From contig NZ_LT671418.1 in assembly GCF_900130075.1 (NCBI RefSeq), positions 2,418,001 to 2,482,000 on the forward strand: 64,000 nt of DNA. Reading direction: 5' to 3'. The DNA is from Herminiimonas arsenitoxidans (GTDB taxonomy: Bacteria; Pseudomonadota; Gammaproteobacteria; Burkholderiales; Burkholderiaceae_D). Below are positions 19,935 to 64,000 of the stretch, in pieces; position 1 is the stretch's first letter; the number at the start of each line of letters is the position of its first letter. The position numbers were made by a program, and so were the translations under genes. The notes under the pieces were generated by a model. The model had not been told where the DNA came from, did not search any database, and saw nothing but the letters and a program-made list of their open reading frames with translations.

Positions 19935-21161
19935 TCACTTTGCAATCGGCTCCGGAATACTGCCGTGCAAAGAACTCAATCGACGCACTTCCGCCAGCAA
20001 TGCCACGGCACCAGGTGACAGATGCGCACCCGCACGCGTCGTGATCCCGATGGCGCGCACTATCCCTTTCATTTCAAACGGTAATACCGTCAAACTGCCG
20101 GCTTCCATTTCGTACTGCAGTTGATGCGCGGTGAGCGCGGTCAACATATCGCTGTGCAAAAGCAATCCGCGTAGCAAAGCCAGATCGCCTGTTTCAACAG
20201 CGGGCTGTGGTGGTGTCTGACCCGACTCAATAAAGAAGGCTTCAAACTCATCACGCAAAGGTGTGCCGGCACGCGACAATGCCCATGGAAATTTCTGGAT
20301 GTCTGCGAAGTTCAGACGTGCTTTTGCGGCCAGTGGATGCGCAGAACGACTAATCAATACGGTCGGTTCTTCAAACAAGAATTCCGTCACCAACTGTTTA
20401 TCCAATGCAGGTCGCAATCCGCCGAGGATGAAATCCACCTTGCCGCTGAGCAGATCCCCACACAATTCTTCATAGGGACTTTCCAGCGAACGCACTTGCA
20501 ACTTCGGATGACGCGCGAGTAGGGCGACGATGGCCGCCGGCAGGATAGAGGTACGCGCCAGCGGCAGGGCGCCTATGGTCACGACACCTTTCAAGGTTCC
20601 ATTCAGAGCAGAAATATCAGCTTCGATATGCGTCAACTCTGCAAGCGCACGATCAAAACGTACGATCCAGCGTATGCCAACATCCGTCGGCACCATGCCA
20701 CGCGCACTACGCAGGAACAAGGGCTGACACAATGCTTTCTCCAACACAGCATTGGCGGCACTCACTGCCGGTTGTGATAAATCCAATGCACGCGCAACGC
20801 TGGGCATGTGATGTGTCTGAGCCAGCAGTGATGCGATAGACAAGCGGCTGGTATTAAACAAAACATCCACCGCAGCAACCCGTGCACCTTGTCCGCATAA
20901 ACGCACCGCATCTTCGCGCACGGCATTCAATTCACTCTCTATCCGCAATGCCCGCAACAACACCATCTCGCCTGCGCCGGTAAGCAACATGCCGCGCCCC
21001 TTGCGTTCGAACAAGGGCACGTCCAGATCTGCTTCGAGTGCCGCAACTGCGCGTACCACCGCCGATGGCGCGCGCAACAGCACTTCCGCTGCAGGTCGAA
21101 CGCCTCCAGTTGCCGCAACAGAACAAAAGGTCCGTAAATGGTGAAGATTAAGTGAGGACAT
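19935..21161 (-). CDS. LysR-type regulator with two HTH domains, adjacent to gallate/PCA genes
   Basis: 408 residues, about 100 longer than a normal LysR protein. A first LysR HTH is at about residues 5-65 (LHHLRTFCSVAATGGVRPAA ... PLFERKGRGMLLT). A second complete one is at about 107-165 (HHMPSVARALDLSQPAVSAA ... PLFLRSARGMVPT). One substrate-binding domain follows. It is divergently transcribed from the oxalomesaconate tautomerase gene, 139 bases away, and is therefore the probable regulator of that operon; the effector is likely a pathway intermediate. Tandem HTHs would allow one dimer to contact four half-sites, consistent with repeated sequence in the gap. Confidence 0.88.
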   Translation of the reverse strand: MSSLNLHHLRTFCSVAATGGVRPAAEVLLRAPSAVVRAVAALEADLDVPLFERKGRGMLLTGAGEMVLLRALRIESELNAVREDAVRLCGQGARVAAVDVLFNTSRLSIASLLAQTHHMPSVARALDLSQPAVSAANAVLEKALCQPLFLRSARGMVPTDVGIRWIVRFDRALAELTHIEADISALNGTLKGVVTIGALPLARTSILPAAIVALLARHPKLQVRSLESPYEELCGDLLSGKVDFILGGLRPALDKQLVTEFLFEEPTVLISRSAHPLAAKARLNFADIQKFPWALSRAGTPLRDEFEAFFIESGQTPPQPAVETGDLALLRGLLLHSDMLTALTAHQLQYEMEAGSLTVLPFEMKGIVRAIGITTRAGAHLSPGAVALLAEVRRLSSLHGSIPEPIAK

Positions 21162-47954: not shown

Positions 47955-49358
47955 TTAACGCGCACCAGCAGGTTGCGCATTACCAGCGCGCATGGAATTG
48001 TTGTTTTTCGCAGCATCCTCACGCAGATAATGTTTTGCATCGACCGGCTTGATGAAATAGTTGCAGATAAAGCCCAGCAATAACAAACCAGCCATGATGT
48101 ACATGGTGACGGCATACGCCTCACCCTTGGCCACACCTTGATCGATTTGATATTGGCGGATGTAGTTCACCAGCACCGGACCGAGCACACCTGCAGCTGC
48201 CCATGCTGTCAACAAACGACCATGGATGCCACCAACAAACTTGGTACCGAACAGATCGGCCAGATAGACAGGCACTGTCGAGAAGCCGCCACCGTACATG
48301 CTGACGATGATGCCGTAGAACAGTACGAACAAGGCAACGCTACCGCTATGTCCGGTGTAAGGAATACAGGCATACAGGATCGCACCAACGATGAAGAAGA
48401 TGAAGTAAGTACGCTTGCGACCTAAATAATCTGATGCCGACGACCAGAAGAAGCGACCGCCCATATTGAACACGCTGAGCAAGCCAACAAAACCGGCAGC
48501 TGCTGCAGCTGAAACCGAGCCTTTGAAGGTTTCTTGAATCATCACTGAAGCCTGACCCAGCACGCCGATACCCGCCGTCACATTCAGGCACAGTACCAAC
48601 CACAACAGATAAAACTGCGGTGTCTTCATCGCTTGATCAATATCCACATGATGCTTGGTGATCATCTTGTTCTCGACCACAGGCGGTACCCAGCCGGCTG
48701 GTTTCCAATCCGGCGCAGGGATACGAATCGCCATCGCACCTATCGTCATCGAGATGAAGTACAACACGCCCATCACGACAAAGGTTTCCGTCACACCGAC
48801 GGAAGTCGCTGTTTTGAAATGATCCATCAGATAGACGGACAAAGGAGCGCCTATCATCGCGCCGCCGCCAAAACCCATGATCGCCATGCCGGTTGCCATG
48901 CCGCGTCTATCCGGAAACCATTTGATCAGCGTTGAGACAGGAGAAACATAACCGAGTCCCAAACCGATACCGCCGATGACGCCATAACCGAGATACACCA
49001 ACCAAATCTGATGCAGCGAAACGCCGATCGCAGAAATCAAAAAGCCGCCGCCGAAACAACAAGCCGCGACAAACATCGTCAAGCGTGGGCCGACTTTTTC
49101 CAGCCATTTACCACCGAAAGCAGCAGCCAAACCGAGGAATACAATCGCCAGACTGAAGATCCAACCTAGCGTAGTCAGCTTCCAGTCATCTGGTGCCGGA
49201 CTATCGATACCTATCAGTTTGGATAATGGACCATTGAATACGCTGAATGCGTAAGCCTGTCCGATACAAAGATGAACTGCCAATGCAGCCGGCGGCACCA
49301 TCCAACGATTGAAGCCGGGGCCGGCGACACTTTTATCTTTTGCAAAAAAATCGAGCAT
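47955..49358 (-). CDS. OFA-family MFS transporter (oxalate/formate antiporter type)
   Basis: A 467-residue 12-helix transporter. Family features: AVHLCIGQAYAFSVFNGPLS in helix 1, GIGLGLGYVSPVSTLIKWF, PDRRGMATGMAIMGFGGGA, and the central loop followed by FYLLWLVLCLNVTAGIG. OxlT relatives exchange oxalate and formate or carry related monocarboxylates; the substrate here is not proven. GAGGAG precedes the ATG. It is transcribed from a sigma-54 promoter about 100 bases upstream and is followed by its small subunit. Confidence 0.92.
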   Translation of the reverse strand: MLDFFAKDKSVAGPGFNRWMVPPAALAVHLCIGQAYAFSVFNGPLSKLIGIDSPAPDDWKLTTLGWIFSLAIVFLGLAAAFGGKWLEKVGPRLTMFVAACCFGGGFLISAIGVSLHQIWLVYLGYGVIGGIGLGLGYVSPVSTLIKWFPDRRGMATGMAIMGFGGGAMIGAPLSVYLMDHFKTATSVGVTETFVVMGVLYFISMTIGAMAIRIPAPDWKPAGWVPPVVENKMITKHHVDIDQAMKTPQFYLLWLVLCLNVTAGIGVLGQASVMIQETFKGSVSAAAAAGFVGLLSVFNMGGRFFWSSASDYLGRKRTYFIFFIVGAILYACIPYTGHSGSVALFVLFYGIIVSMYGGGFSTVPVYLADLFGTKFVGGIHGRLLTAWAAAGVLGPVLVNYIRQYQIDQGVAKGEAYAVTMYIMAGLLLLGFICNYFIKPVDAKHYLREDAAKNNNSMRAGNAQPAGAR

Positions 49359-49470
49359 GTAAATCTCCTCATTTGATCTTGTTCGCAACATCGCTGTGTT
49401 GCGAGGCGTTTTTCGACGACGCTCATGCATCGTCTGCGGCGAAGCTTCTTCACCAAGCCCGGACCTATAG

Positions 49471-49485
49471 GCAATCGACATGCCA
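49471..49485 (-). promoter_or_regulatory. sigma-54 (-24/-12) promoter of OFA transporter
   Basis: On the leftward strand TGGCATG-TCGA-TTGC has GG and GC exactly 10 bases apart and matches the consensus TGGCAYR-N4-TTGC. It predicts a start near 49459, about 100 bases before the transporter ATG. Confidence 0.8.
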
Positions 49486-49553
49486 GACAGATAAAGCTAT
49501 ACAAGCTATTGATTATTAATGATTTTTATAAAAACATATGACTCATCAAGTGA

Positions 49554-49586
49554 GACAATTTGACCGACCGTAGCGACAATTTGACC
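49554..49586. promoter_or_regulatory. two 12-bp direct repeats, candidate activator sites
   Basis: GACAATTTGACC occurs at 49554-49565 and 49575-49586, start to start 21 bases (two helical turns). They lie about 95-127 bases upstream of the predicted sigma-54 start, the usual position for an NtrC-type enhancer. Confidence 0.65.
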
Positions 49587-49679
49587 CTCTTCTTGCAAGA
49601 CAAAATCCACATCCAAACCTGCCATACCAGCTTGCAAATTGTTGCAAATAGTCATCAAACCCCGTTAATTTTCCGTTAA

Positions 49680-49708
49680 AACGTTATGTCGTACAAATAT
49701 ATAACGTA
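49680..49708. promoter_or_regulatory. ModE-box-like palindrome upstream of TonB receptor 1
   Basis: CGTTATGT (49682-49689) faces ATATAACG (49699-49706) with 9 bases between, so the outer CG dinucleotides span 25 bp. The right arm TATATAACG is identical to the Mo-box arm; the left arm differs at two positions. It ends 86 bases before the receptor ATG. Confidence 0.6.
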
Positions 49709-49794
49709 TATACTCTCGCTTTTTAAAAAATGGCCGTTATTCCTGATTGGCTACAACGCAGCAATCAGAGAAGCCAATAAATTGAGGGAGTGAA

Positions 49795-51813
49795 ATGAGT
49801 TACCAGTTGTCTCGTACCACCATCGCAGCATCCTTGCTGCTTGCGTTCGGTAGCACTGCATTTGCAGCAGAACCGGTTAATGAATCCAATGTCTTTACGC
49901 TCGGCGAAATCAATGTCGCAGGATCAGGCACGGCGACACCTGCAACAGGTGGTGCTACCGTCACCCGCGAGGAGATGGATGATTTCAATCGTGAGACCCT
50001 GCAGAAGGCGCTTGATATCTTGCCAGGCGTCACCGTAACAGGTGGCGGCCAACGTAATGAAAGTATGGTCTACGTACGCGGCTTTGATAGCCGCCAAGTT
50101 CCTGTATTTATTGACGGCATTCCTGTTTATGTGTCCTACGATGGCAATGTCGACATGGCACGCTTTACTACTTACGATCTGGCATCCATTGAAGTTGCAA
50201 AGGGTTTCAGTTCCGTTCTATACGGTCCAAATACCATTGGTGGCGCAATCAACTTGATCAGCCGCCGTCCAGTCAAAGCATTCGAAGGCAATATTGGCGT
50301 CGGCATTCGATCCAATGACAAATTCAATTCCAATGGCAACAACGCCAACATTAATCTCGGCACCAATCAAGGCATGTGGTACGCGCAACTCGCCATGTCT
50401 TATCTGGACACGGATGGTTACACGCTATCCCGCGACTTCCGTCCTGTTGCAACACAACCTGATCGCGAGCGCCGCAATGCCTATAGCAACGACAAGAAAA
50501 TCAATATCAAGGTCGGCCTGACGCCAAATACAACAGATGAATACTCGCTGAATTACATCAACCAAAAAGGTGAAAAAGGTAGCCCACCATATGCTGGCAC
50601 CTTGGCGACCGCCAACTACTGGCAATGGCCAGCATGGGATAAAGAGAGTGTGTATTTCATTTCCAATACTGCAATCGGTCAAAACTCTTATGTCAAAGTA
50701 CGTGCCTACTATGACAAGTTCACAAATCGCTTGAACGCATACGATGATGCACGCTACTCAACTGTCACCAAAAGAAGTTCTTTTTATAGTTTTTACGACG
50801 ACCACACTTATGGCGGTAGCGTTGAATTCGGGACAAAAATCTCTGATATCAATACCTTAAAGGTCGCCTTACATTTAAAAGAAGACATTCATAAAGAACA
50901 TAATCTTGGCGAGCCGACTCAACATTCTCAAGACAGAACAACGTCAATCAGTATTGAAGATACTCACAAATTGACAAGCAAATTGGACTTGGTTACTGGC
51001 GCAAGCTATGACACGCGCAAAGGTAAGCAGGCTCAAAAATATGATTCGACTCTGGGTATTATCAACTACGCACCTACCGACACGTCTGCGTTCAATCCAC
51101 AAGCTGGCTTGATTTACCACACATCAGAAACAGGTAATGCCTACTTTACGATCGCTCGAAAATCTCGCTTCCCGACAATCAAAAATCGTTATTCGGGCGG
51201 CTTGGGTTCAAACATTCCAAACCCTAGTTTGGATGTAGAACGTGCCACCAACTATCAATTAGGGTTCTCCGAAAAACTGAATCCTAAACTGCGTGTAGAG
51301 GCTGCCATCTTCTACAGCGAGATTACTGACATGATGCAATCGGTCCCTGTTCCAGGAACCGTATGCGGTACAAGTACGTGTAATCAGGTACAGAACGTCG
51401 GCGACGTCAGAACTAAAGGTATTGAGTTAGGAATAACCAATTTCATCACTGACAATCTTGAAATCGGTGGGAACTACACTTACACACACAGAGAAAACAA
51501 ATCAAACCCTAGTGTCAAACTGACTGAAGTCCCGTTGAGTAAGTTCTTTGCCTATGCAAAATGGGCAGCTACACCGAAACTTAATGTTATCGGTAACGCC
51601 GTATATCGTACTCATCAATACACGGGCCTCAATGGTGTTTTTAGAGACACTCCTGCTTTCACAGTTGCGAACGCGAAAATTAGTTATGCCATCCAGAAAG
51701 ATGTGACGATCGAAGCAGGTGTAAACAATCTGTTCGATCGTAACTATGCATACACTGAAGGCTTCTACGAAGAAGGCCGTAACCTCTTCGCTAATTTGAA
51801 CTACCGTTTCTAA
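49795..51813 (+). CDS. TonB-dependent outer-membrane receptor 1
   Basis: A 672-residue receptor: signal peptide ending STAFAAE, plug domain (LQKALDILPGVTVTGGGQRN, VYVRGFDSRQVPVFIDGIP, GPNTIGGAINLISRRP), then a barrel ending NLFANLNYRF. Plug and length resemble receptors for metal complexes or cobalamin-size ligands. It is followed 10 bases later by a binding-protein gene, and the intervals suggest one transcript with the di-heme protein. The second half of the gene is more A/T-rich than neighbours. The ligand is unknown; its ModE-like upstream site suggests an oxyanion or metal. Confidence 0.93.
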   Translation: MSYQLSRTTIAASLLLAFGSTAFAAEPVNESNVFTLGEINVAGSGTATPATGGATVTREEMDDFNRETLQKALDILPGVTVTGGGQRNESMVYVRGFDSRQVPVFIDGIPVYVSYDGNVDMARFTTYDLASIEVAKGFSSVLYGPNTIGGAINLISRRPVKAFEGNIGVGIRSNDKFNSNGNNANINLGTNQGMWYAQLAMSYLDTDGYTLSRDFRPVATQPDRERRNAYSNDKKINIKVGLTPNTTDEYSLNYINQKGEKGSPPYAGTLATANYWQWPAWDKESVYFISNTAIGQNSYVKVRAYYDKFTNRLNAYDDARYSTVTKRSSFYSFYDDHTYGGSVEFGTKISDINTLKVALHLKEDIHKEHNLGEPTQHSQDRTTSISIEDTHKLTSKLDLVTGASYDTRKGKQAQKYDSTLGIINYAPTDTSAFNPQAGLIYHTSETGNAYFTIARKSRFPTIKNRYSGGLGSNIPNPSLDVERATNYQLGFSEKLNPKLRVEAAIFYSEITDMMQSVPVPGTVCGTSTCNQVQNVGDVRTKGIELGITNFITDNLEIGGNYTYTHRENKSNPSVKLTEVPLSKFFAYAKWAATPKLNVIGNAVYRTHQYTGLNGVFRDTPAFTVANAKISYAIQKDVTIEAGVNNLFDRNYAYTEGFYEEGRNLFANLNYRF

Positions 51814-51823
51814 GAGTTTCACT

Positions 51824-53170
51824 ATGCTACGCACATCACTTTCTCTCCGTAAGCTGATCGCTACTGCGATCTTCGGCTTTGCATCTGTCATCGCTGTGGC
51901 GGCAGATAAACCCGCTGGCAAGGTTGTGGTCATGACCAGTTATCCGGAAGAAGTGGTGGCGCGTTTCGAAGCTGCTTTTGAAAAAGCGCATCCCGGTACC
52001 CGCGTTGAAATACTCTGGCGTCGTTCCGGTGATGCGCTGTCTTACCTGCGCAAACCGAATCAAGGTAATGTCGATGTCTACTGGACACCGGCACAACGTA
52101 ATTTCCAAATCCTCGCCAAAGAAGGTGCATTCCGCCGTCCCGATCTGGATATGAAGGGCCTGCCTGCCAAAGTTGGCGGCTTCCCGATCTCCGATCCTGC
52201 CGACTTCTATCTCGCAAGTGAAATTGCAGGCTATGGCTTTGCGATCAATCCGCAGCGCCTGCAAGACAAAAAATTGCCGCAACCAAAACAATGGACAGAC
52301 CTGACCGGCCCTGAGTGGAAAGACGAAATCGTTTTCCCGATCCCGGGCAAAGTCGGCTTCGCACCGATCCTCATAGACATCATCTTGCAAGGATATGGCT
52401 GGGATAAAGGCTGGGCCTTGCTGCAATCCATAGGCAGCAATGCGCACCTATTGGGTCAAGGCGGTGCAAATATTTCCGATGACGTCCGTAACGGTCAGGC
52501 CAGTGTCGGCGTGTCTATCGACTTCTTCATCAAATCGGCGATAGCCAATGGCGCGCCTATCCAGTTTATTTATCCCGGCATTACTGGTTACTCGCCAGCG
52601 CATGTCGGCATCATGAAGGGCGCACCGAATCTGGCAGCTGCTCGCGCCTTCGCTACTTTCGTATTGTCGGATGAAGGGCAGAAGATACTGTTCCATCATG
52701 ACATCCGTAAATTGCCGGTACGTCCTGCAGTGTATGCAGACAAACCAGCCGGCTACTACGATCCGTTCGAAGCTGCCAAGGCCATGCCTTTTGTCTTTGA
52801 TACCGAACGTGCATTGGCACGTCAGGGCTTCAACAACACTTTGTTTGATGTGTTGATCAGCAATGAACATGTGCGTCTGCGTTCGGCGAATGACAAGGTC
52901 ATTCAGGCCGAGCGTGCAGCAAACACTCCGGTATTGAAAGCAAAAGCTGCTCAAGCACGCGGCTTGCTCGATACGATACCAGTGAGCGAAGCAGAAGCCA
53001 CTGCGCTCGCGCCACAGTTTGTGTTCGCCTTTGATGAAACAACAGACGCTCACCGCAATGATGCGATTACTGCGCAATGGACTACGCGCATCCGGGAAAA
53101 CCGTGCACGTGCAGAACAACTAGCGCAGGAAGTATTAAACGCAACGGGCAAGCAAGCGAGTGCCCAGTGA
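51824..53170 (+). CDS. ABC-type periplasmic solute-binding protein (iron/metal type)
   Basis: A 448-residue exported binding protein. Signal peptide to about residue 28 (ASVIAVAADKPAGK), then the class II SBP fold (VVVMTSYPEEVVARFEAAFE, then VDVYWTPAQRN). It resembles the FutA/AfuA-like extracellular solute-binding proteins. The C-terminal region is longer than in typical FbpA. No permease or ATPase genes accompany it. It lies between a receptor and a di-heme oxidoreductase and overlaps the latter by 4 bases (GTGA). Confidence 0.87.
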   Translation: MLRTSLSLRKLIATAIFGFASVIAVAADKPAGKVVVMTSYPEEVVARFEAAFEKAHPGTRVEILWRRSGDALSYLRKPNQGNVDVYWTPAQRNFQILAKEGAFRRPDLDMKGLPAKVGGFPISDPADFYLASEIAGYGFAINPQRLQDKKLPQPKQWTDLTGPEWKDEIVFPIPGKVGFAPILIDIILQGYGWDKGWALLQSIGSNAHLLGQGGANISDDVRNGQASVGVSIDFFIKSAIANGAPIQFIYPGITGYSPAHVGIMKGAPNLAAARAFATFVLSDEGQKILFHHDIRKLPVRPAVYADKPAGYYDPFEAAKAMPFVFDTERALARQGFNNTLFDVLISNEHVRLRSANDKVIQAERAANTPVLKAKAAQARGLLDTIPVSEAEATALAPQFVFAFDETTDAHRNDAITAQWTTRIRENRARAEQLAQEVLNATGKQASAQ

Positions 53171-54540
53171 AATTCAAACGTTTCATCGGCTATCTGGGTG
53201 TGTTGCCAGTAGCCTTGCTGTTAAGTGGTACCGCCAACATTGATACCAAGTCACTGAGCGGCGGCAGCGCTACCGTCTTTGACGACAGCCGCGACGCATA
53301 TTCGCAAGCCAGTCCGGTTATGGATACGGACAATATGGCCGCATTCATCCAAGGCCGCGGCTTGTTCCGCCAATCGTGGGTAGTCGCACCGGCGAATGAC
53401 AGGGCGGCCGGACTCGGCCCACTATACAACCGCATTTCCTGCATTGCCTGCCATGCCAAAAATGGCCGCGGCGGCGCACCTGATGGTCCTGATGGCACCA
53501 TGCAAGCGATGCTCTTGCGCCTCAGCATACCCGGCAGCAATCCGCATGGCGGTCCGAAACCGCATCCCGCGTATGGCGATCAGTTGAATGAACGCGGCGT
53601 GCCTGGTGTACCCGGCGAAGGCATAGGCTTCCTGATCTATGACGAAAATGTAGAAACACTGGCCGACGGCACCAAAGTCACGCTGCGCAAACCGAATGTC
53701 CATTTCAAGGAAATGGCCTACGGTGCGCTCGGCACAGATGTCATGGTGTCACCACGCGTAGGCCCGGTTATCTATGGCCTCGGCCTGCTGGAAGCGGTCA
53801 GCGACGAAACCATATTGGCAATGGCAAAACAGGCCAAGCCGGATGGCATCGCCGGACGCGTGAATATGGTCTGGGATGCGATGGCGCAAAAGGAAGCAAT
53901 AGGACGCTTCGGCATGAAGGCGAATGTCGCGACACTGACCGAGCAAATCGCGAATGCTTTCTCCGGCGACCTCGGCATTACGTCACCTCTGATTCCGCAA
54001 GAAAATTGTACCAAGGTACAAACCGCCTGCCAGCGCGCACCGTCCGGTGGCGAACCTGAACTGACGCGCGCTGAGCTGTATGCGACCGTGTTCTACACGC
54101 GCATGTTGGCGGTACCGGCACGACGCGATGTGAATAACAAACAAGTAATCCACGGCAATCGTTTATTTGTACAAGCACGTTGCATTGCCTGTCACGCATC
54201 GCCATTACGTACCCGTCCTGATGCTGCGTTGCCAGCCTTGTCCAACCAGTTGATACGCCCTTATACAGATTTGTTGCTGCACGATATGGGGCCAGGTTTG
54301 GCCGATGGCCGTAGCGATTATCTTGCCACCGGCAAAGAATGGCGCACGCCACCTTTGTGGGGCATAGGGCTGACACACAAGGTCAATCCCGATGCCGGCT
54401 ATCTGCATGATGGTCGTGCTCGCACCTTGCTGGAAGCCATCATGTGGCATGGCGGCGAAGGCAACTACTCGAAGGAAGCAGTACGCGCGATGTCGACCGA
54501 AGATCGCACTGCCTTGCTGCGTTTTCTGGAATCGCTCTGA
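53167..54540 (+). CDS. di-heme oxidoreductase (DUF1111 family)
   Basis: A 457-residue exported protein with two c-type heme sites, CIACHAKNG at about residue 91 and CIACHASPL at about 339, in a DUF1111/MauG-related fold. An N-terminal hydrophobic segment (FIGYLGVLPVALLLSG) targets it for export. The GTG start overlaps the SBP stop (GTGA); the longer upstream frame is not used. Such proteins occur beside metal-uptake systems such as imelysin or EfeO genes and may change the ligand's redox state. Function inferred only. Confidence 0.85.
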   Translation: MKFKRFIGYLGVLPVALLLSGTANIDTKSLSGGSATVFDDSRDAYSQASPVMDTDNMAAFIQGRGLFRQSWVVAPANDRAAGLGPLYNRISCIACHAKNGRGGAPDGPDGTMQAMLLRLSIPGSNPHGGPKPHPAYGDQLNERGVPGVPGEGIGFLIYDENVETLADGTKVTLRKPNVHFKEMAYGALGTDVMVSPRVGPVIYGLGLLEAVSDETILAMAKQAKPDGIAGRVNMVWDAMAQKEAIGRFGMKANVATLTEQIANAFSGDLGITSPLIPQENCTKVQTACQRAPSGGEPELTRAELYATVFYTRMLAVPARRDVNNKQVIHGNRLFVQARCIACHASPLRTRPDAALPALSNQLIRPYTDLLLHDMGPGLADGRSDYLATGKEWRTPPLWGIGLTHKVNPDAGYLHDGRARTLLEAIMWHGGEGNYSKEAVRAMSTEDRTALLRFLESL

Positions 54541-54642
54541 ATACAATCCGTTGCCAAATTTGCAGGACAAAATATCCTGCTTCCCCTATCTCGACTCTCA
54601 TGTAAAACTGTCGTCATCGACGTATAAATGGAAGAGAAGATC

Positions 54643-54840
54643 ATGGCAAAGAAAGAAGAACTGGACCCAGAAACACTAGCCGTCCTGAACTGGTGCATAG
54701 AAGTAGAAGGCTTCCTGGTCGCCGGCGGTGCCACCTTGGCAGAAGCGCAAGATCATATTGAAGAGCAGATCGAATGGTTCACCGATTTGTTCTATGACGG
54801 CCTGACACCGGAAGAAGCGGCGAAAGAAGCATTGGCCTGA
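54643..54840 (+). CDS. small acidic hypothetical protein
   Basis: A 65-residue acidic protein starting MAKKEELDPETLAVLNW, predicted all-helical (LAEAQDHIEEQIEWFTDLFY, then TPEEAAKEAL). GAAGAG precedes this ATG by about 6 bases; an ATG 15 bases upstream is also possible. No family recognised. It is monocistronic with a strong terminator. Confidence 0.65.
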   Translation: MAKKEELDPETLAVLNWCIEVEGFLVAGGATLAEAQDHIEEQIEWFTDLFYDGLTPEEAAKEALA

Positions 54841-54857
54841 ACGCCAGACACTGAAAA

Positions 54858-54898
54858 CTAAAAAGCGCGCCTGAATGTTCAAGGCGCGCTTTTTTTAT
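54858..54898. terminator. bidirectional terminator
   Basis: AAAAAGCGCGCCT and AGGCGCGCTTTTT form a strong stem; A/T runs lie on both sides, between convergent genes. Confidence 0.92.
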
Positions 54899-54913
54899 TG
54901 CATCCAACAAATA

Positions 54914-55747
54914 TCAATCTTCGGCTGGCACTGTCACTGGCGTAAATCCGTATTGCGCCATCAGCTTCTGCGCTTGCGGGCTTAACAGGAAAAGCGCGAA
55001 TCGATAAGCGGCTTCATGCGATTTTTTCTCGCGTGTGATCACCGATAAACCATAGCTAGGTGTGATTGCCAATGCTGCCGGCAATGGCACGCTGGCGAAC
55101 TTGGGGTCAGGTGTGGTCTGACGACCACTGCAATAACCCAGCGATATCTGCACCTTCTTTTCCGCGAAAAAATATTCCATTGCATTGCGCCCAGCTGGAA
55201 CCGGCGGATTGTTTTTTCCACCGACCAGTTGCTGCGCTTTTGCTTCCAGAATTGCTTGCGCACCGGGACGAACTTTCTCGGCCTTGGCAAACATTTGCCA
55301 CGCATAATCACCGCCCGGATCAGCTTTTGGTGTTGAAGTACCGAGGCCGACTTGCGGATCGAGTAAACGATCCAACAAGTTTTCTGTCGTCAACTTGTAG
55401 TCCGGCAAAGCTTTCGCGCACAGACGATTGCGTACCATCACGACTGCTGGTGTTGCGATACCTTGATCGGCCAAAGCTTGCGGATGCTCCATATTCGCTG
55501 ACGCAAAGATATCGGCTTGTTCACCGCTCTCTATGCGCTCACGCAATAAACCGGCAGGACCAAATTGCGCATCGATCTTTTGTCCGGTCTGTTGCGTATA
55601 GAGCTGCGCGACAGCTGTCATCGCACCGGTCAAGCTACCTGCAGCCAACACCTTGATAGGTGCTGATGGCAAGGGTGTGACGGCCGCAGCGCTGACACTA
55701 ACCAGCATCAGCGGTAAAGCCATATAAGAAAAAACTATTTTCTTCAC
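54914..55747 (-). CDS. modA: ModA-like molybdate/oxyanion-binding protein, without ModBC
   Basis: A 277-residue exported binding protein. After the signal peptide (MLVSVSAAAVT) comes the ModA opening IKVLAAGSLTGAMTAVAQLY and the anion-binding Ser segment DIFASANMEHP. The third region GLGTSTPKADPGGDYAWQMF and VQISLGYCSG align with the ModA core but are divergent, so the ligand may be tungstate, molybdate or another oxyanion. modB and modC are absent nearby. It follows TonB receptor 2 by 23 bases, probably in the same transcript. The gene symbol is given by similarity only. Confidence 0.8.
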   Translation of the reverse strand: MKKIVFSYMALPLMLVSVSAAAVTPLPSAPIKVLAAGSLTGAMTAVAQLYTQQTGQKIDAQFGPAGLLRERIESGEQADIFASANMEHPQALADQGIATPAVVMVRNRLCAKALPDYKLTTENLLDRLLDPQVGLGTSTPKADPGGDYAWQMFAKAEKVRPGAQAILEAKAQQLVGGKNNPPVPAGRNAMEYFFAEKKVQISLGYCSGRQTTPDPKFASVPLPAALAITPSYGLSVITREKKSHEAAYRFALFLLSPQAQKLMAQYGFTPVTVPAED

Positions 55748-55770
55748 AATGATTTCGCTTTCAGGAAAAA

Positions 55771-57903
55771 TTAGAAATCCATTTGCATAGATGCACGGAT
55801 AGTGCGCGGGGCACCCAGTGTGCCGGTACCATTATCTGCACCGGTATAACCGTTCTGTCCACTTGGTACGATATTGGCCCAGTAACGCTCATCAGTAACA
55901 TTGTTGATGGCAAGACGCCATGTAGTCGGGCGTCCCATTAATTGCGTCGTGTAACGCGCGCCCAGATCCATCACCGTATAGCCATCTACTTTGTAGCTAT
56001 TGATGTTGTCACCTTGTCGACTGCCTGCATGACTGACGTTCAGGCTAAGCCCTAAGCCAGGTATCATCGCGACGCGGTAGTCCAGCAAGATATTGCTGAC
56101 TATGCGCGACAAGCCCATGATTTGTTTATTCGAAGTCGCAGGGCTGTTCGTATTCAGTAAACGTGGATCAAGATAAGTCAGGCCACCATACAAGGTGAGA
56201 TTGCGTGTCAGTGCGCCGTTTGCCATCAATTCGAGACCTTGATTACGCTGCTCGCCTTGCACGGCAAACACACCATTGGCAGCAAAGGCGAACGGACGCT
56301 CGATGCGAAACAAAGCGGCGCTGAAGCCCATTTTTTCAAATGCAAGTTTGTAGCCCAGTTCCCACTGCTTGCTGCGGTAAGGTGCCAGCGTTGTCGTACC
56401 TGATGTATCGCCTTGCTGCAGGCTGTCCGCATAAGATGCATAGATCGTCATGTTCTTTTGCGGCTTGTATGAAACCGTCGCATTAGTGCTGAGACCACTA
56501 TCGTTGTAAGCAGATGTCGCTACTGTTGTACCGTTGGGATTGTAGCCACGCTGATCAATCCAACTCTGACTCGCAAACAAACCGATCGACCACTGTTCAT
56601 TCAAGCCGAGCGTGTCTCCGACTGTGACGGATTGTTGTCGAACAGTTTGTGCCTTGTAACGATTCTTGAAATCCGAAAAAACAGGTTGATTGAAAATAGC
56701 CGGATTACCCAGAGTTGAATTGCCGAGTGTGATCGCACCTGTCTGAAATGGTCGGTAACGATCCCATTCAAATCCTGTTGCGGATACCACGATGTCATGT
56801 GTCATGCTGCCGGTGCTGACACGTCCATTCAACGCAACGGTATGGCTGAGAATTTCATCCAAACTGAAACTAGTCGTTGCTACTTTTACGTTGTAGGCAC
56901 CTGCATTATTCGTCAACGTATTAGTCGGTACTGTAGACGCACGATCACTGCTTTGCTTCAGTACACCAGCTGTCAGATTCCAATTCTGATTAAGACGATG
57001 TTTGATACGCGCGCTATAAGTTTCCGTCACGTTATCGTCACCAGCAAAAGGCTGGCCATAACCAACGCGTTTTGGATCTGGTGCTGTAGGAAACACGATA
57101 GTCGCGTTATTCAATGCGAACGTGCCTGGCAAACCTTTGCTCGTGTAGTGATAACGGCTGATATTCGTTTCCAGCTTGGTATCGCTCGTCAGTTGCACAT
57201 CGAAGGACAGACTTGCCAGCTTGCGATCCAGCTTGCTACGATCAACATAGCTTTCGCCACCCTCATCCAGCAAATTGACGCGAAAACCGTAACGCTTATC
57301 TTCACCAAAACGATCACTGATATCGGCGCTAACCGATGCGGAACCCTGGCTGGCGTAACCAAGCGTAAAGCGACGCAGCGGCGTTTCCGTCGGCCGCTTC
57401 AAGACATAGTTGAAGGTGCCGGCAGGACTGGCCGGACCATACAATGCGCCCGCCAATCCATTCAATACTTCAATACGATCAAACTGCTCGATAGGATAGT
57501 CGGTAGTCGCAGCGATATTCATGCCGTCTATGCGTGTGTTCTGTACGACGCCGGCTTGCAAGCCACGCGTTTGCGGACGAATGTTCTCGCCTTGTACCGA
57601 TGGCATGTAACGGAAGGCTTCGCGCACGCTTTTCAATTGCTGGTTCTCCAGCAGTTCAGCCGGCACGACGTTGATTGCGTACGGCGTATCCAGCACGCTC
57701 TTTTCGCCTAATGGTCCGATATTCGCTGTTTCTGTCTTGTAGGCAGGTGCACCTGTGCCGACAACGTCAACTGTTTCCAGCACGGCCGCTTTATCTGCTG
57801 CAAGAGAAGCAACAGGCAAAACGCCGCTCATGGTGGCGATGGCGAACACCGTCAGGCCCGATGCACGACGGGCAATATGTGATTTATTTATGTGGTTCTT
57901 CAT
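55771..57903 (-). CDS. TonB-dependent outer-membrane receptor 2 (siderophore-receptor type)
   Basis: A 710-residue receptor of the siderophore class. Signal peptide MKNHINKSHIARRASGLTVF ends near SLAADKA. Plug features are LGEKSVLDTPYAINVVPAEL, YMPSVQGENIRPQTRGLQAG and YGPASPAGTFNYVLKRP. The barrel ends RTIRASMQMDF. No strong ribosome site precedes the chosen start; an upstream start adding 20 residues is possible. It shares with the modA-like gene a divergent gap holding a ModE-box-like palindrome. It may import a metal- or oxyanion-siderophore complex. Confidence 0.9.
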   Translation of the reverse strand: MKNHINKSHIARRASGLTVFAIATMSGVLPVASLAADKAAVLETVDVVGTGAPAYKTETANIGPLGEKSVLDTPYAINVVPAELLENQQLKSVREAFRYMPSVQGENIRPQTRGLQAGVVQNTRIDGMNIAATTDYPIEQFDRIEVLNGLAGALYGPASPAGTFNYVLKRPTETPLRRFTLGYASQGSASVSADISDRFGEDKRYGFRVNLLDEGGESYVDRSKLDRKLASLSFDVQLTSDTKLETNISRYHYTSKGLPGTFALNNATIVFPTAPDPKRVGYGQPFAGDDNVTETYSARIKHRLNQNWNLTAGVLKQSSDRASTVPTNTLTNNAGAYNVKVATTSFSLDEILSHTVALNGRVSTGSMTHDIVVSATGFEWDRYRPFQTGAITLGNSTLGNPAIFNQPVFSDFKNRYKAQTVRQQSVTVGDTLGLNEQWSIGLFASQSWIDQRGYNPNGTTVATSAYNDSGLSTNATVSYKPQKNMTIYASYADSLQQGDTSGTTTLAPYRSKQWELGYKLAFEKMGFSAALFRIERPFAFAANGVFAVQGEQRNQGLELMANGALTRNLTLYGGLTYLDPRLLNTNSPATSNKQIMGLSRIVSNILLDYRVAMIPGLGLSLNVSHAGSRQGDNINSYKVDGYTVMDLGARYTTQLMGRPTTWRLAINNVTDERYWANIVPSGQNGYTGADNGTGTLGAPRTIRASMQMDF

Positions 57904-58035
57904 GAGTAATAGAGGAGTGACGAACAAGGTCCAAATCTTTGGACTACGCGATGCAGGCAGCATCCGTATGAAGTCGCCGTGTAAAGGAAGTCTTGCTTAT
58001 GCCGCTGGCATATCAGGCATTGCGGCCGAAGTTTA

Positions 58036-58064
58036 ATCGACATTACTTAAAACTACATAACGAT
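58036..58064. promoter_or_regulatory. ModE-box-like palindrome in receptor 2 / ModE-like gap
   Basis: CGACATTA (58038-58045) and ACATAACG (58055-58062) are separated by 9 bases; the outer CG pairs again span 25 bp, as at 49680-49708. The right side TACATAACGAT differs at one of 11 positions from the Mo-box arm; the left side is weaker. Confidence 0.55.
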
Positions 58065-58191
58065 ATTTATGCGACTGCGGCAAAGTAGCAACAACGCCAT
58101 CGTGTTGATTTCAGGAAAACTGCATTGAAAGACTTGCGTGTTCCGCAGCGATTTGAGCGAAAATACGTCCGTCCAAAAGAAAGCCCTAGCC

Positions 58192-58614
58192 ATGCCTAAA
58201 AGCCAGCCAAAAAAATCGACCTCCCCGCAGCCACGCGTGCGCGTTTTGATGGGGGAACTCACTGCGATGGGACCGGGCCGCGCAGATCTGATCGATGCGA
58301 TCGCACGCACAGGTTCCATCTCTGCTGCCGGGCGCGAAATGAATATGTCCTATCGTCGAGCATGGTCACTGGTCGAAACTACCAACGCCTCCTTTATCGA
58401 ACCACTCGTCATCGCCAGCACGGGTGGTAGCGGTGGCGGTGGGGCGCTCGTCACCGACTTTGGTCATGGTGTGGTTGAGCGTTACCGTGCGATGGAACGC
58501 AAAGCGGCGAAAGCCATCGCCAGCGATTTTGCGATCTTCAGCAAACTGCTCGCAGCACCAAAAATCGCCACTCCTGCAGCAAAAGCAAAACCTGCCAAGA
58601 GCGCGAAGAAGTAA
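58192..58614 (+). CDS. one-domain ModE-like winged-helix regulator
   Basis: A 140-residue protein corresponding to the DNA-binding half of ModE: a winged helix (LIDAIARTGSISAAGREMNM, followed by SYRRAWSLVE) and the diagnostic Gly-rich loop TGGSGGGGALVTDFG. The two C-terminal molybdate-binding Mop domains of E. coli ModE are missing; a Lys/Ala-rich tail takes their place. It therefore either senses through another partner or works constitutively. It lies divergent from receptor 2. Confidence 0.9.
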   Translation: MPKSQPKKSTSPQPRVRVLMGELTAMGPGRADLIDAIARTGSISAAGREMNMSYRRAWSLVETTNASFIEPLVIASTGGSGGGGALVTDFGHGVVERYRAMERKAAKAIASDFAIFSKLLAAPKIATPAAKAKPAKSAKK

Positions 58615-58972
58615 TTTTTACGGCAAGTACATCAACGACTCATCGTTTGGTGTACCTCATCGCTCTTGCTGCGTTTTCTACGAACAGAAAACCACAGCTC
58701 ACTCCTGCCATCTGACGAATCCTTATCTGTAGTTTACTAAGCCGATACCTGCTCAAAGCTTGCATCTACACGGTTTACGCTATATCCTCATGAGCATAAC
58801 GAAATCGGTTTTGCTAGCAAGCTGCAGAATAAATACCCATCCAGGCACAATTTTTCACGCATAGATACCGACCCCGTTATTACAGTGAGTTTCCGACCTG
58901 TGCGTCAGACAGCGCAAATCAAATGGTCGGCAACCTTATACGTTCCGTTGGAATTTTTGCAGGAAGAAAATC
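58615..58972. other. gene-free region with a third ModE-box-like palindrome
   Basis: 358 bases without a gene. It contains a ModE-box-like element at 58776-58803, listed separately. No terminator for the regulator gene was recognised. Confidence 0.6.
58776..58803. promoter_or_regulatory. third ModE-box-like palindrome
   Basis: CGCTATAT (58778-58785) and GCATAACG (58794-58801) around 8 bases, with outer CG pairs spanning 24 bp, the spacing of the classical Mo-box (two 11-bp arms around 6 bp). The left arm matches exactly. It could control the small gene at 58973 or be an extra site for the regulator gene. Confidence 0.45.
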
Positions 58973-59251
58973 GTGGCTTTGATTGAATACAAAGGCTATT
59001 TCATCTCGGTGACCGCAACCGAACAAACCTGGGGTTTCGCCTTTGGCGAATGGGGTGGCACGTATCGTGTGTGGCACAAAGAAAATCTGGTGCCGATAGA
59101 AGGTGTGATCGAAGGTAATGAGATTTCCGCACACGAGGCAGAGCAAAGAACACTGCGCATAGTCAAGGTTGCCATCGACGAGGCAACCGCGAAAACCAGC
59201 GAACAGCTAATGCAATCGTTGAATCAATTAGGCGAACGTTTCGCCTTGTAA
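58973..59251 (+). CDS. small hypothetical protein
   Basis: A 92-residue soluble protein starting with GTG (MALIEYKGYFISVTATEQ) after AGGA. It has a predicted beta-rich N-terminal half (EWGGTYRVWHKENLV) and a helical C-terminal half. No family recognised. The third ModE-like site lies 170 bases upstream. Confidence 0.65.
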   Translation: MALIEYKGYFISVTATEQTWGFAFGEWGGTYRVWHKENLVPIEGVIEGNEISAHEAEQRTLRIVKVAIDEATAKTSEQLMQSLNQLGERFAL

Positions 59252-63669: not shown

Positions 63670-63843
63670 TGATATAGCCTGTAGAAAATGATGGCGAGAC
63701 ACGCCGGGAGGAGCAGAACGAGACTTTGATCTTATCCGTTAACAACGCGATTTCCGGAATGACCCTGATGCCAATGCGACCAATAGGCACCCGAACTCAG
63801 CGATAGCCAAATAGAATGGCGGTACATCACCTGTTCTCAATAT

Positions 63844-63876
63844 GTCGTTAAAAGTAATATCGTGTATCATAACGAC
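63844..63876. repeat. inverted repeat upstream of the last gene
   Basis: GTCGTTA (63844-63850) and TAACGAC (63870-63876), perfect arms with 19 bases between. TATCAT at 63865-63870 could be a -10. It may be an operator for the LysR protein or for the gene at 63921. Confidence 0.5.
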
Positions 63877-63920
63877 TTTTGCTGAACAGCCCTTCATCAT
63901 TTTTAAAGATAGAGACTGTT

Positions 63921-64000
63921 ATGAGCAAGACAACTTCGCCCATCAAACTGGAAGGTCTATCCAAGCCTCGCGGCAAGCGCTGGGACCATTTGGAACTGCT
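63921..64000 (+). CDS. start of an unidentified gene (cut by window edge)
   Basis: ATG at 63921 begins MSKTTSPIKLEGLSKPRGKR and continues open to the window end, 26 full codons. This is too short to assign. Its position, divergent from the LysR gene beside formate dehydrogenase, suggests a related oxidoreductase or accessory gene, but nothing in the residues shows this. No strong ribosome site. Confidence 0.5.
   Translation, partial: MSKTTSPIKLEGLSKPRGKRWDHLEL

Follow-up and report, generated by a model that had tools for sequence, protein, structure and literature searches.

In the genome of Herminiimonas arsenitoxidans, a stretch of 64 kb (called the window below; contig positions 2418001-2482000 of the 3.78-Mb single-contig genome, and the frame for all window coordinates) carries genes for two TonB-dependent receptors, their periplasmic companions and a one-domain regulator of the ModE family, together with palindromes of the ModE-box type. 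Receptor 1 (49795..51813, plus strand) is followed, starting 10 bp past its end, by a gene for a periplasmic binding protein of the SBP_bac_6/PhnS2-like kind (51824..53170, plus strand; 448 amino acids (aa)), whose stop codon is overlapped by the GTG start, at 53167, of a di-haem oxidoreductase-like protein (53167..54540, plus strand; PF06537 at 5.3e-95, two CxxCH motifs). Receptor 2 (55771..57963) and a ModA-like binding protein (54914..55747; 277 aa) are encoded on the minus strand, and the regulator (140 aa) at 58192..58614 on the plus strand. Both receptors score above the Pfam cut-offs for the plug and barrel domains (PF07715 and PF00593); the predicted model of receptor 1, with a predicted local distance difference test score (pLDDT) of 86.5, is a barrel of many strands (41 sequences in its alignment, A4), and receptor 2 passes the siderophore-receptor model TIGR01783 (265.5, cut-off 223.5). 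The ModA-like protein passes TIGR01256 (76.3 bits, cut-off 62.5). The 140-aa protein matches TIGR00637 with 79 bits (E 2.1e-22), short of the curated cut-off of 98.5, and a part of the full-length ModE model PRK10676. A first-pass annotation, made by a model from the letters of the DNA, had named just these genes, two receptors, binding proteins, a di-haem protein and a ModE-like regulator, and the domain and family models agree with it.

The same annotation placed palindromes before both receptors and beyond the regulator. They are indeed there, with lengths of 25, 25 and 24 bp, and can be compared with the box pattern CGNTATRT-N8/9-AYATANCG, which covers a 25-bp and a 24-bp form; the Escherichia coli ModE consensus appears in the available part of PMC545781 as ATCGNTATATA-N6-TATATANCGAT. 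Site 1 (49682..49706; 25 bp), 88 bp 5' of receptor 1, has no mismatch and is the sole exact 25-bp match in the genome. Site 2 (58038..58062; 25 bp), between receptor 2 and the regulator, has three mismatches. The exact 24-bp pattern occurs nowhere in the genome, and site 3 (58778..58801; 24 bp), upstream of a gene for a 92-aa protein, is one of four places with a single mismatch. With two mismatches allowed, the genome shows no excess of the pattern (33 and 31 places, against 46 and 46 for the reversed-pattern control). Therefore, only tight matches are meaningful, and counts of loose boxes were dropped as support.

For a second measure, a ModE matrix was built from 28 distinct modABC-side sites near one-domain modE/modABC genes in other genomes of the family, taken from 30 of 36 loci (L162-L197; L and G numbers are our own labels for loci and genomes). 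As these sites were chosen for at most two mismatches to the pattern, matrix and pattern are not independent of each other; the receptor loci had no part in building the matrix. The training sites score 18.8-32.1. Over the whole window site 1 ranks first (22.2) and site 3 second (18.2), while site 2 is joint fourth with 8.7. It is also possible to use as a probe the modE-operon box of Herminiimonas sp. KBW02, which matches the box of the window's own full-length modE-modABC operon (63838..63862) at 22 of 25 positions and sites 1 and 2 at 20 each; the next-best match in the window has 17, and 20 was reached in one of 200 shuffled windows. Site 1 aligns with boxes of three congeners, each of which has a box before receptor 1, and a box stands at the place equivalent to site 3 in two congeners. 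About 50 bp past site 1 lies a weaker box in tandem (49735..49758; one mismatch to CGNTAT-N12-ATANCG, matrix 3.7), and this second box, weak in the window, has at most two mismatches in congeners G080 and G114.

How far does this arrangement extend beyond one genus? The trio of receptor 1, binding protein and di-haem protein is kept as an operon in the three congeners (L282-L284). A scan with the binding protein (alignment A1) over a collection of 84,980 species gave 78 loci in named genomes, among them Gallionellaceae, Methylophilaceae, Rhodocyclales, Oxalobacteraceae, Pseudomonas, methanotrophs and one metagenome-assembled genome (MAG) labelled Verrucomicrobiaceae; the genera include Pseudomonas, Methylobacillus, Zoogloea, Azonexus and Herbaspirillum. 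Receptor 1 stands immediately before the binding protein in 73 of the 78 and somewhere in the locus in 77, and the binding protein has the di-haem gene behind it in 75; the three exceptions are loci that stop 34, 96 and 330 bp beyond the binding protein. It is to be noted that this conservation is conditional on the loci having been found through conserved peptides of the binding protein. Across the wider taxonomic order, several families carry the binding protein together with receptor 1 and the di-haem gene. The control was a paralogous binding protein (33-37% identity), 11 loci of which contained no modA or modB at 40% or more, no ModE, no receptor 1 and no di-haem gene.

Regions upstream of receptor 1 were usable in 73 of the 78 loci (L296, L315 and L330 were dropped for a short upstream, L318 and L347 for want of a long receptor 1). 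A box with at most two mismatches lies within 400 bp of receptor 1 in 49 of these 73 (11 exact, 29 with one and nine with two mismatches). For comparison, 60 permuted palindromes averaged 0.40 such upstreams and never gave more than 2, and random windows drawn from the same loci held a box in 17 of 730 cases. The matrix reaches 8 or more in 52/73, against 33/730 random windows. Within 1 kb there is a box in 58 of the 78 loci, and 38 have two or more. As for molybdenum genes, modB (at least 50%) is found in 30 loci, a ModE-like gene (at least 38% over 80 residues) in 39, and one or the other in 40; counting such a gene or a box (within 1 kb) as a link, 66 of the 78 are linked. After the loci were assigned by hand, from record titles, to 44 genus-level groups, 32 groups have the box and 36 some molybdenum link. 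In one Azoarcus, modE-modABC, receptor 1, the binding protein and the di-haem gene follow each other on one strand, and in two Pseudothauera genomes modE-modABC, the binding protein and the di-haem gene do so with receptor 1 apart on the other strand. Control of the trio operon by ModE is well supported by these comparisons of sequence.

Several genes were seen as additions to the trio loci. A DUF2325 gene adjoins pairs of exact ModE boxes in two of them (L351, 12908-14280; L318, 2931-4538), a DUF2478 gene lies between receptor 1 and the binding protein in two others (L340, 9360-10004; L341, 9288-9887), and in two Methylobacillus species a SulP-family permease gene follows the di-haem gene (L292, 12603-14246; L343, 12839-14452). 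Such a permease could be an alternative inner-membrane step.

Which ModE would act on these boxes? No molybdate-binding (TOBE/MOP) domain was found by Pfam in the 140-aa regulator, which stops after its DNA-binding domain; one-domain ModEs are described for Desulfovibrio in the available part of PMC545781. Relatives of the regulator in the family adjoin modABC. Among 40 of their loci (L158-L197), 35 have a modA or modB match, some of them weak (those without are L160, L161, L171, L182 and L197), and in 35 a ModE or modA match has a box no more than 500 bp away (those without are L160, L171, L182, L192 and L194). Thus, the one-domain ModE subfamily goes with molybdate transport. A full-length modE (278 aa) starts near the window's edge (63879..64000, plus strand), and its operon, beginning 5 kb from the one-domain ModE region, continues with modA, modB and modC past the window end. 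Beyond the edge (L114) we find these genes, a ModE-like regulator with a binding-protein domain and formate dehydrogenase genes; the names come from our reading of the translations, and modE with modABC recurs as a conserved neighbour elsewhere. Since the one-domain protein has no domain for molybdate, sensing is more likely the task of the full-length ModE 5 kb away, and the one-domain ModE might partner with it, compete with it, or be informed of molybdate by some other route.

The proteins of the trio give some clues to what is transported. In the model of the binding protein (pLDDT 92.8), roughly the first 310 residues appear, by our own reading, to form the binding fold and the remainder to be helical. 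Its nearest folds are glucose-6-phosphate- and pyridoxal phosphate (PLP)-binding proteins, with ferric-binding proteins next. In ferric-binding proteins of the FbpA kind a tyrosine pair binds the iron; here this pair is replaced, DFF being aligned to the TYY stretch of 7li0. The label of a metal-type binding protein in the first-pass annotation does not fit, since phosphate esters are what its closest solved relatives bind and it lacks the tyrosine pair for ferric iron. AfuA, VcA0625 and P5PA, which the protein resembles in fold and sequence, bind sugar phosphates or PLP and have 314-321 residues in their solved structures, whereas the window protein has 448 and a C-terminal helical extension that they lack. 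A protein of this kind could take a tetrahedral oxyanion or a phosphate ester as ligand. Among solved structures, sequence profiles place receptor 1 closest to the colicin I receptor and to ferric enterobactin receptors.

The case of receptor 2 and the ModA-like protein rests on few examples. Among 399 genomes, nine have a match to receptor 2 at E 1e-80 or better, and three, the own genome included, at 41% or more; no relative was found in the congener loci L282-L284. One example is a MAG of Rhodocyclales (L341), in which receptor 1, the DUF2478 gene, the binding protein and the di-haem gene are succeeded, without change of strand, by genes for a further TonB receptor, a Peripla_BP_2 protein, a relative of receptor 2 (60%) and a ModA-like protein (42%); no good box was found there directly before the receptor 2 relative. 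In two further loci, L370 and L371, whose receptor 2 relatives have 41% and 39% identity, a box scoring 29.3 and 31.2, respectively, heads genes for a permease-like protein, by our own reading of it, an ATPase and a receptor 2-like protein. In G028 a relative of the ModA-like protein (56%; L267) has a box of 28.0 just upstream. The residues by which ModA binds its oxyanion include serines, and the ModA-like protein keeps the stretch AAGSLTGA. No ModB or ModC partner was seen beside its gene among the proteins tested at 47955-59251; the modBC of this genome sits with the other modA.

Taken together, the locus is best read, and probably rightly, as a system that takes up a complex of molybdenum or tungsten with energy from TonB and under the control of ModE. 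The idea of the first-pass annotation that both cassettes belong to one regulon is supported: for the receptor 1 operon it is well supported, through the boxes, the conserved neighbourhood and the many genera, and for receptor 2 with the ModA-like protein it is supported moderately. Its proposal for the ligand, molybdate, tungstate or a metallophore complex, is likely. What the sequences themselves support are the genes, the boxes, their conservation and the link to modABC; from these we infer repression, the cargo, a step for each protein and the ModE that acts. When molybdate is sufficient, ModE would sit on the boxes and keep the operon off, and when molybdate becomes low, the operon would open. 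Receptor 1, driven by TonB, would then bring a complex of molybdenum or tungsten, probably with a small chelator, into the periplasm, where either this complex or the oxyanion would be captured by the binding protein. For the di-haem protein our guess is a redox step, oxidation or reduction of the complex, that would yield free molybdate, and ModABC would carry the molybdate inward. Receptor 2 and the ModA-like protein would make a second route of the same kind. The molybdophores of Azotobacter are catecholates, like the cargo of enterobactin-type receptors; because the relatives of receptor 1 are receptors of that type, a catechol-type molybdenum complex may be guessed as the cargo by analogy.

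Several points weigh against this reading. Molybdate passes porins. On the matrix, site 2 is at chance, since shuffled windows give 2.5 hits of at least 8; in the matrix scan that the first-pass annotation had named as able to refute the regulon, sites 1 and 3 score above random and site 2 does not, the support for site 2 coming from its match to the KBW02 box. The box of the own modE operon is itself poor on the matrix (-0.3). A site at 2539-2562 of L116 (G000:C1:737538) scores 21.9 with no evident molybdenum gene beside it, and it would be a chance match or an unrecognised target. None of the three genome places with one mismatch or a high matrix score that were inspected (L116, L125 and L117) is beside an evident molybdenum gene, and the score at L116 tells us that a high matrix score alone is no proof of function. 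Among the receptor 1 upstreams, 24 of 73 have no box within 400 bp, and 12 of the 78 loci have no molybdenum link at all, some of these being short contigs (L295, L306, L317, L330, L331, L336, L342, L344, L347, L350, L356 and L359). No sigma-70-like promoter was found when looked for at the two receptor promoters, so that repression by overlap is not supported. No ABC permease gene lies beside the binding protein. The ModA-like protein has FGPAG where a molybdate-binding relative has FGSTG, and among 15 ModA-like loci (L267-L281, including the second copy of the own genome) a box stands at most 300 bp upstream in one, L267, and a relative of receptor 2 is found in none.

Another possibility is that ModE controls the operon while the cargo is something else, such as an organic compound bearing phosphate or a different metal that the cell needs while its molybdenum enzymes are off. 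We regard this as unlikely. In its favour, the nearest solved relatives of the binding protein bind glucose-6-phosphate and PLP. There is also a parallel in Azotobacter vinelandii, where three TonB receptors (Avin_30860, 39890 and 47130) are strongly activated only without Mo and V; as far as the available part of PMC9542535 goes, VnfA1 activates them at sigma-54 promoters, whereas no removal of ModE is involved, and their cargo is only potentially metal-related. However, in some genomes the trio and modABC run in the same direction, and a protein of the ModA family accompanies receptor 2 both here and in L341; both points weigh against this alternative. It is much less probable that these are ordinary iron-siderophore or haem receptors under Fur that lie near ModE genes by chance. 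Receptor 2 does pass the siderophore-receptor model and receptor 1 does resemble the colicin I and ferric enterobactin receptors, but the Fur consensus, taken from PMC545781, is not enriched upstream of receptor 1 (at most six mismatches in 5 of 73 upstreams, against 20 of 365 random windows), the binding protein has other residues in place of the ferric tyrosine pair, and ModE boxes recur across many genera. Regulation by Fur and iron is thus contradicted in silico. That palindromes and neighbours are both due to chance is hardly credible, for although the two-mismatch pattern is not enriched in the genome, site 2 by itself is at chance and the 21.9-scoring site has no evident molybdenum gene beside it, the box precedes the operon in 32 of 44 genus-level groups where permuted palindromes average 0.4 of 73 upstreams, and for receptor 1 this recurrence refutes the chance reading.

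Uptake of a molybdenum or tungsten complex under ModE would join elements known from separate systems. With the ModE regulon of Proteobacteria, which consists of modABC and molybdoenzyme operons, the window shares a near-consensus box, a regulator of the ModE family and the adjacency of modABC; it differs by adding TonB receptors, a binding protein of phosphate-ester type and a di-haem protein, and by the regulator beside the receptors, which is without the molybdate-binding domains of the regulon's ModE. The genes Achr_39320-39290 of Azotobacter chroococcum resemble, going by their description, the receptor 2-type operon of L370 and L371; they form an ABC operon annotated by neighbourhood, and the available part of their description makes no mention of an SBP_bac_6/di-haem pair. 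A dedicated outer-membrane step for molybdate is also the likeness to ModA-IcmP of Pseudomonas aeruginosa, in which, however, ModA is secreted by the type VI system, as stated in the available part of PMC8602904. Chelator-bound uptake of molybdenum has been described in Azotobacter, where 'molybdophores' are made under molybdenum limitation (PMC3440940, available part). A TonB receptor controlled by ModE was not described in the open-access literature searched, as far as those texts were available, most subscription journals and RegPrecise being outside that scope; in the available text of PMC5343134, 'molybd' occurs once, in the reference list only.

That the trio and its ModE boxes are met again in many bacteria, frequently next to the genes of the molybdate pump, suggests that a means of molybdenum scavenging has been overlooked. 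We know of no outer-membrane receptor of proven function for chelator-bound molybdenum. If we go one step further and postulate a widespread, undescribed pathway of Beta- and Gammaproteobacteria, in which a ModE-repressed TonB receptor would import chelated or phosphate-ester-bound molybdenum or tungsten, a binding protein from the phosphate-ester-binding family would receive it and, within the periplasm, a di-haem protein would free the metal for ModABC, our belief and our doubt are about equal. If the cargo is a molybdenum complex, the trio provides named, testable receptor genes in culturable genera, and the metabolism of formate, nitrate and nitrogen, where water and soil are poor in molybdenum, would be tied to specific uptake genes. 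The di-haem family PF06537, annotated only as putative peroxidase, would gain a link to metal supply.

Some minor observations may be added. The 92-aa protein downstream of site 3 (58973..59251, plus strand) has no match in Pfam or NCBIfam and is conserved in two congeners at 88% and 57%; preceded by this strong site, its gene may belong to the ModE regulon as a small, new member. Elsewhere in the genome (L110, 5241-9572; G000:C1:804000-823000), a second one-domain ModE is found with a TiaS-like protein, a 209-aa membrane protein and a third TonB receptor, and boxes at this locus score 18.4, 15.7 and 11.2 on the matrix. Its membrane protein has one other carrier among the 399 genomes, at a locus without a good box (best 8.3). 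Apart from these, a LysR-type regulator in the window (19935-21161) contains two separate HTH_1 stretches in one protein.

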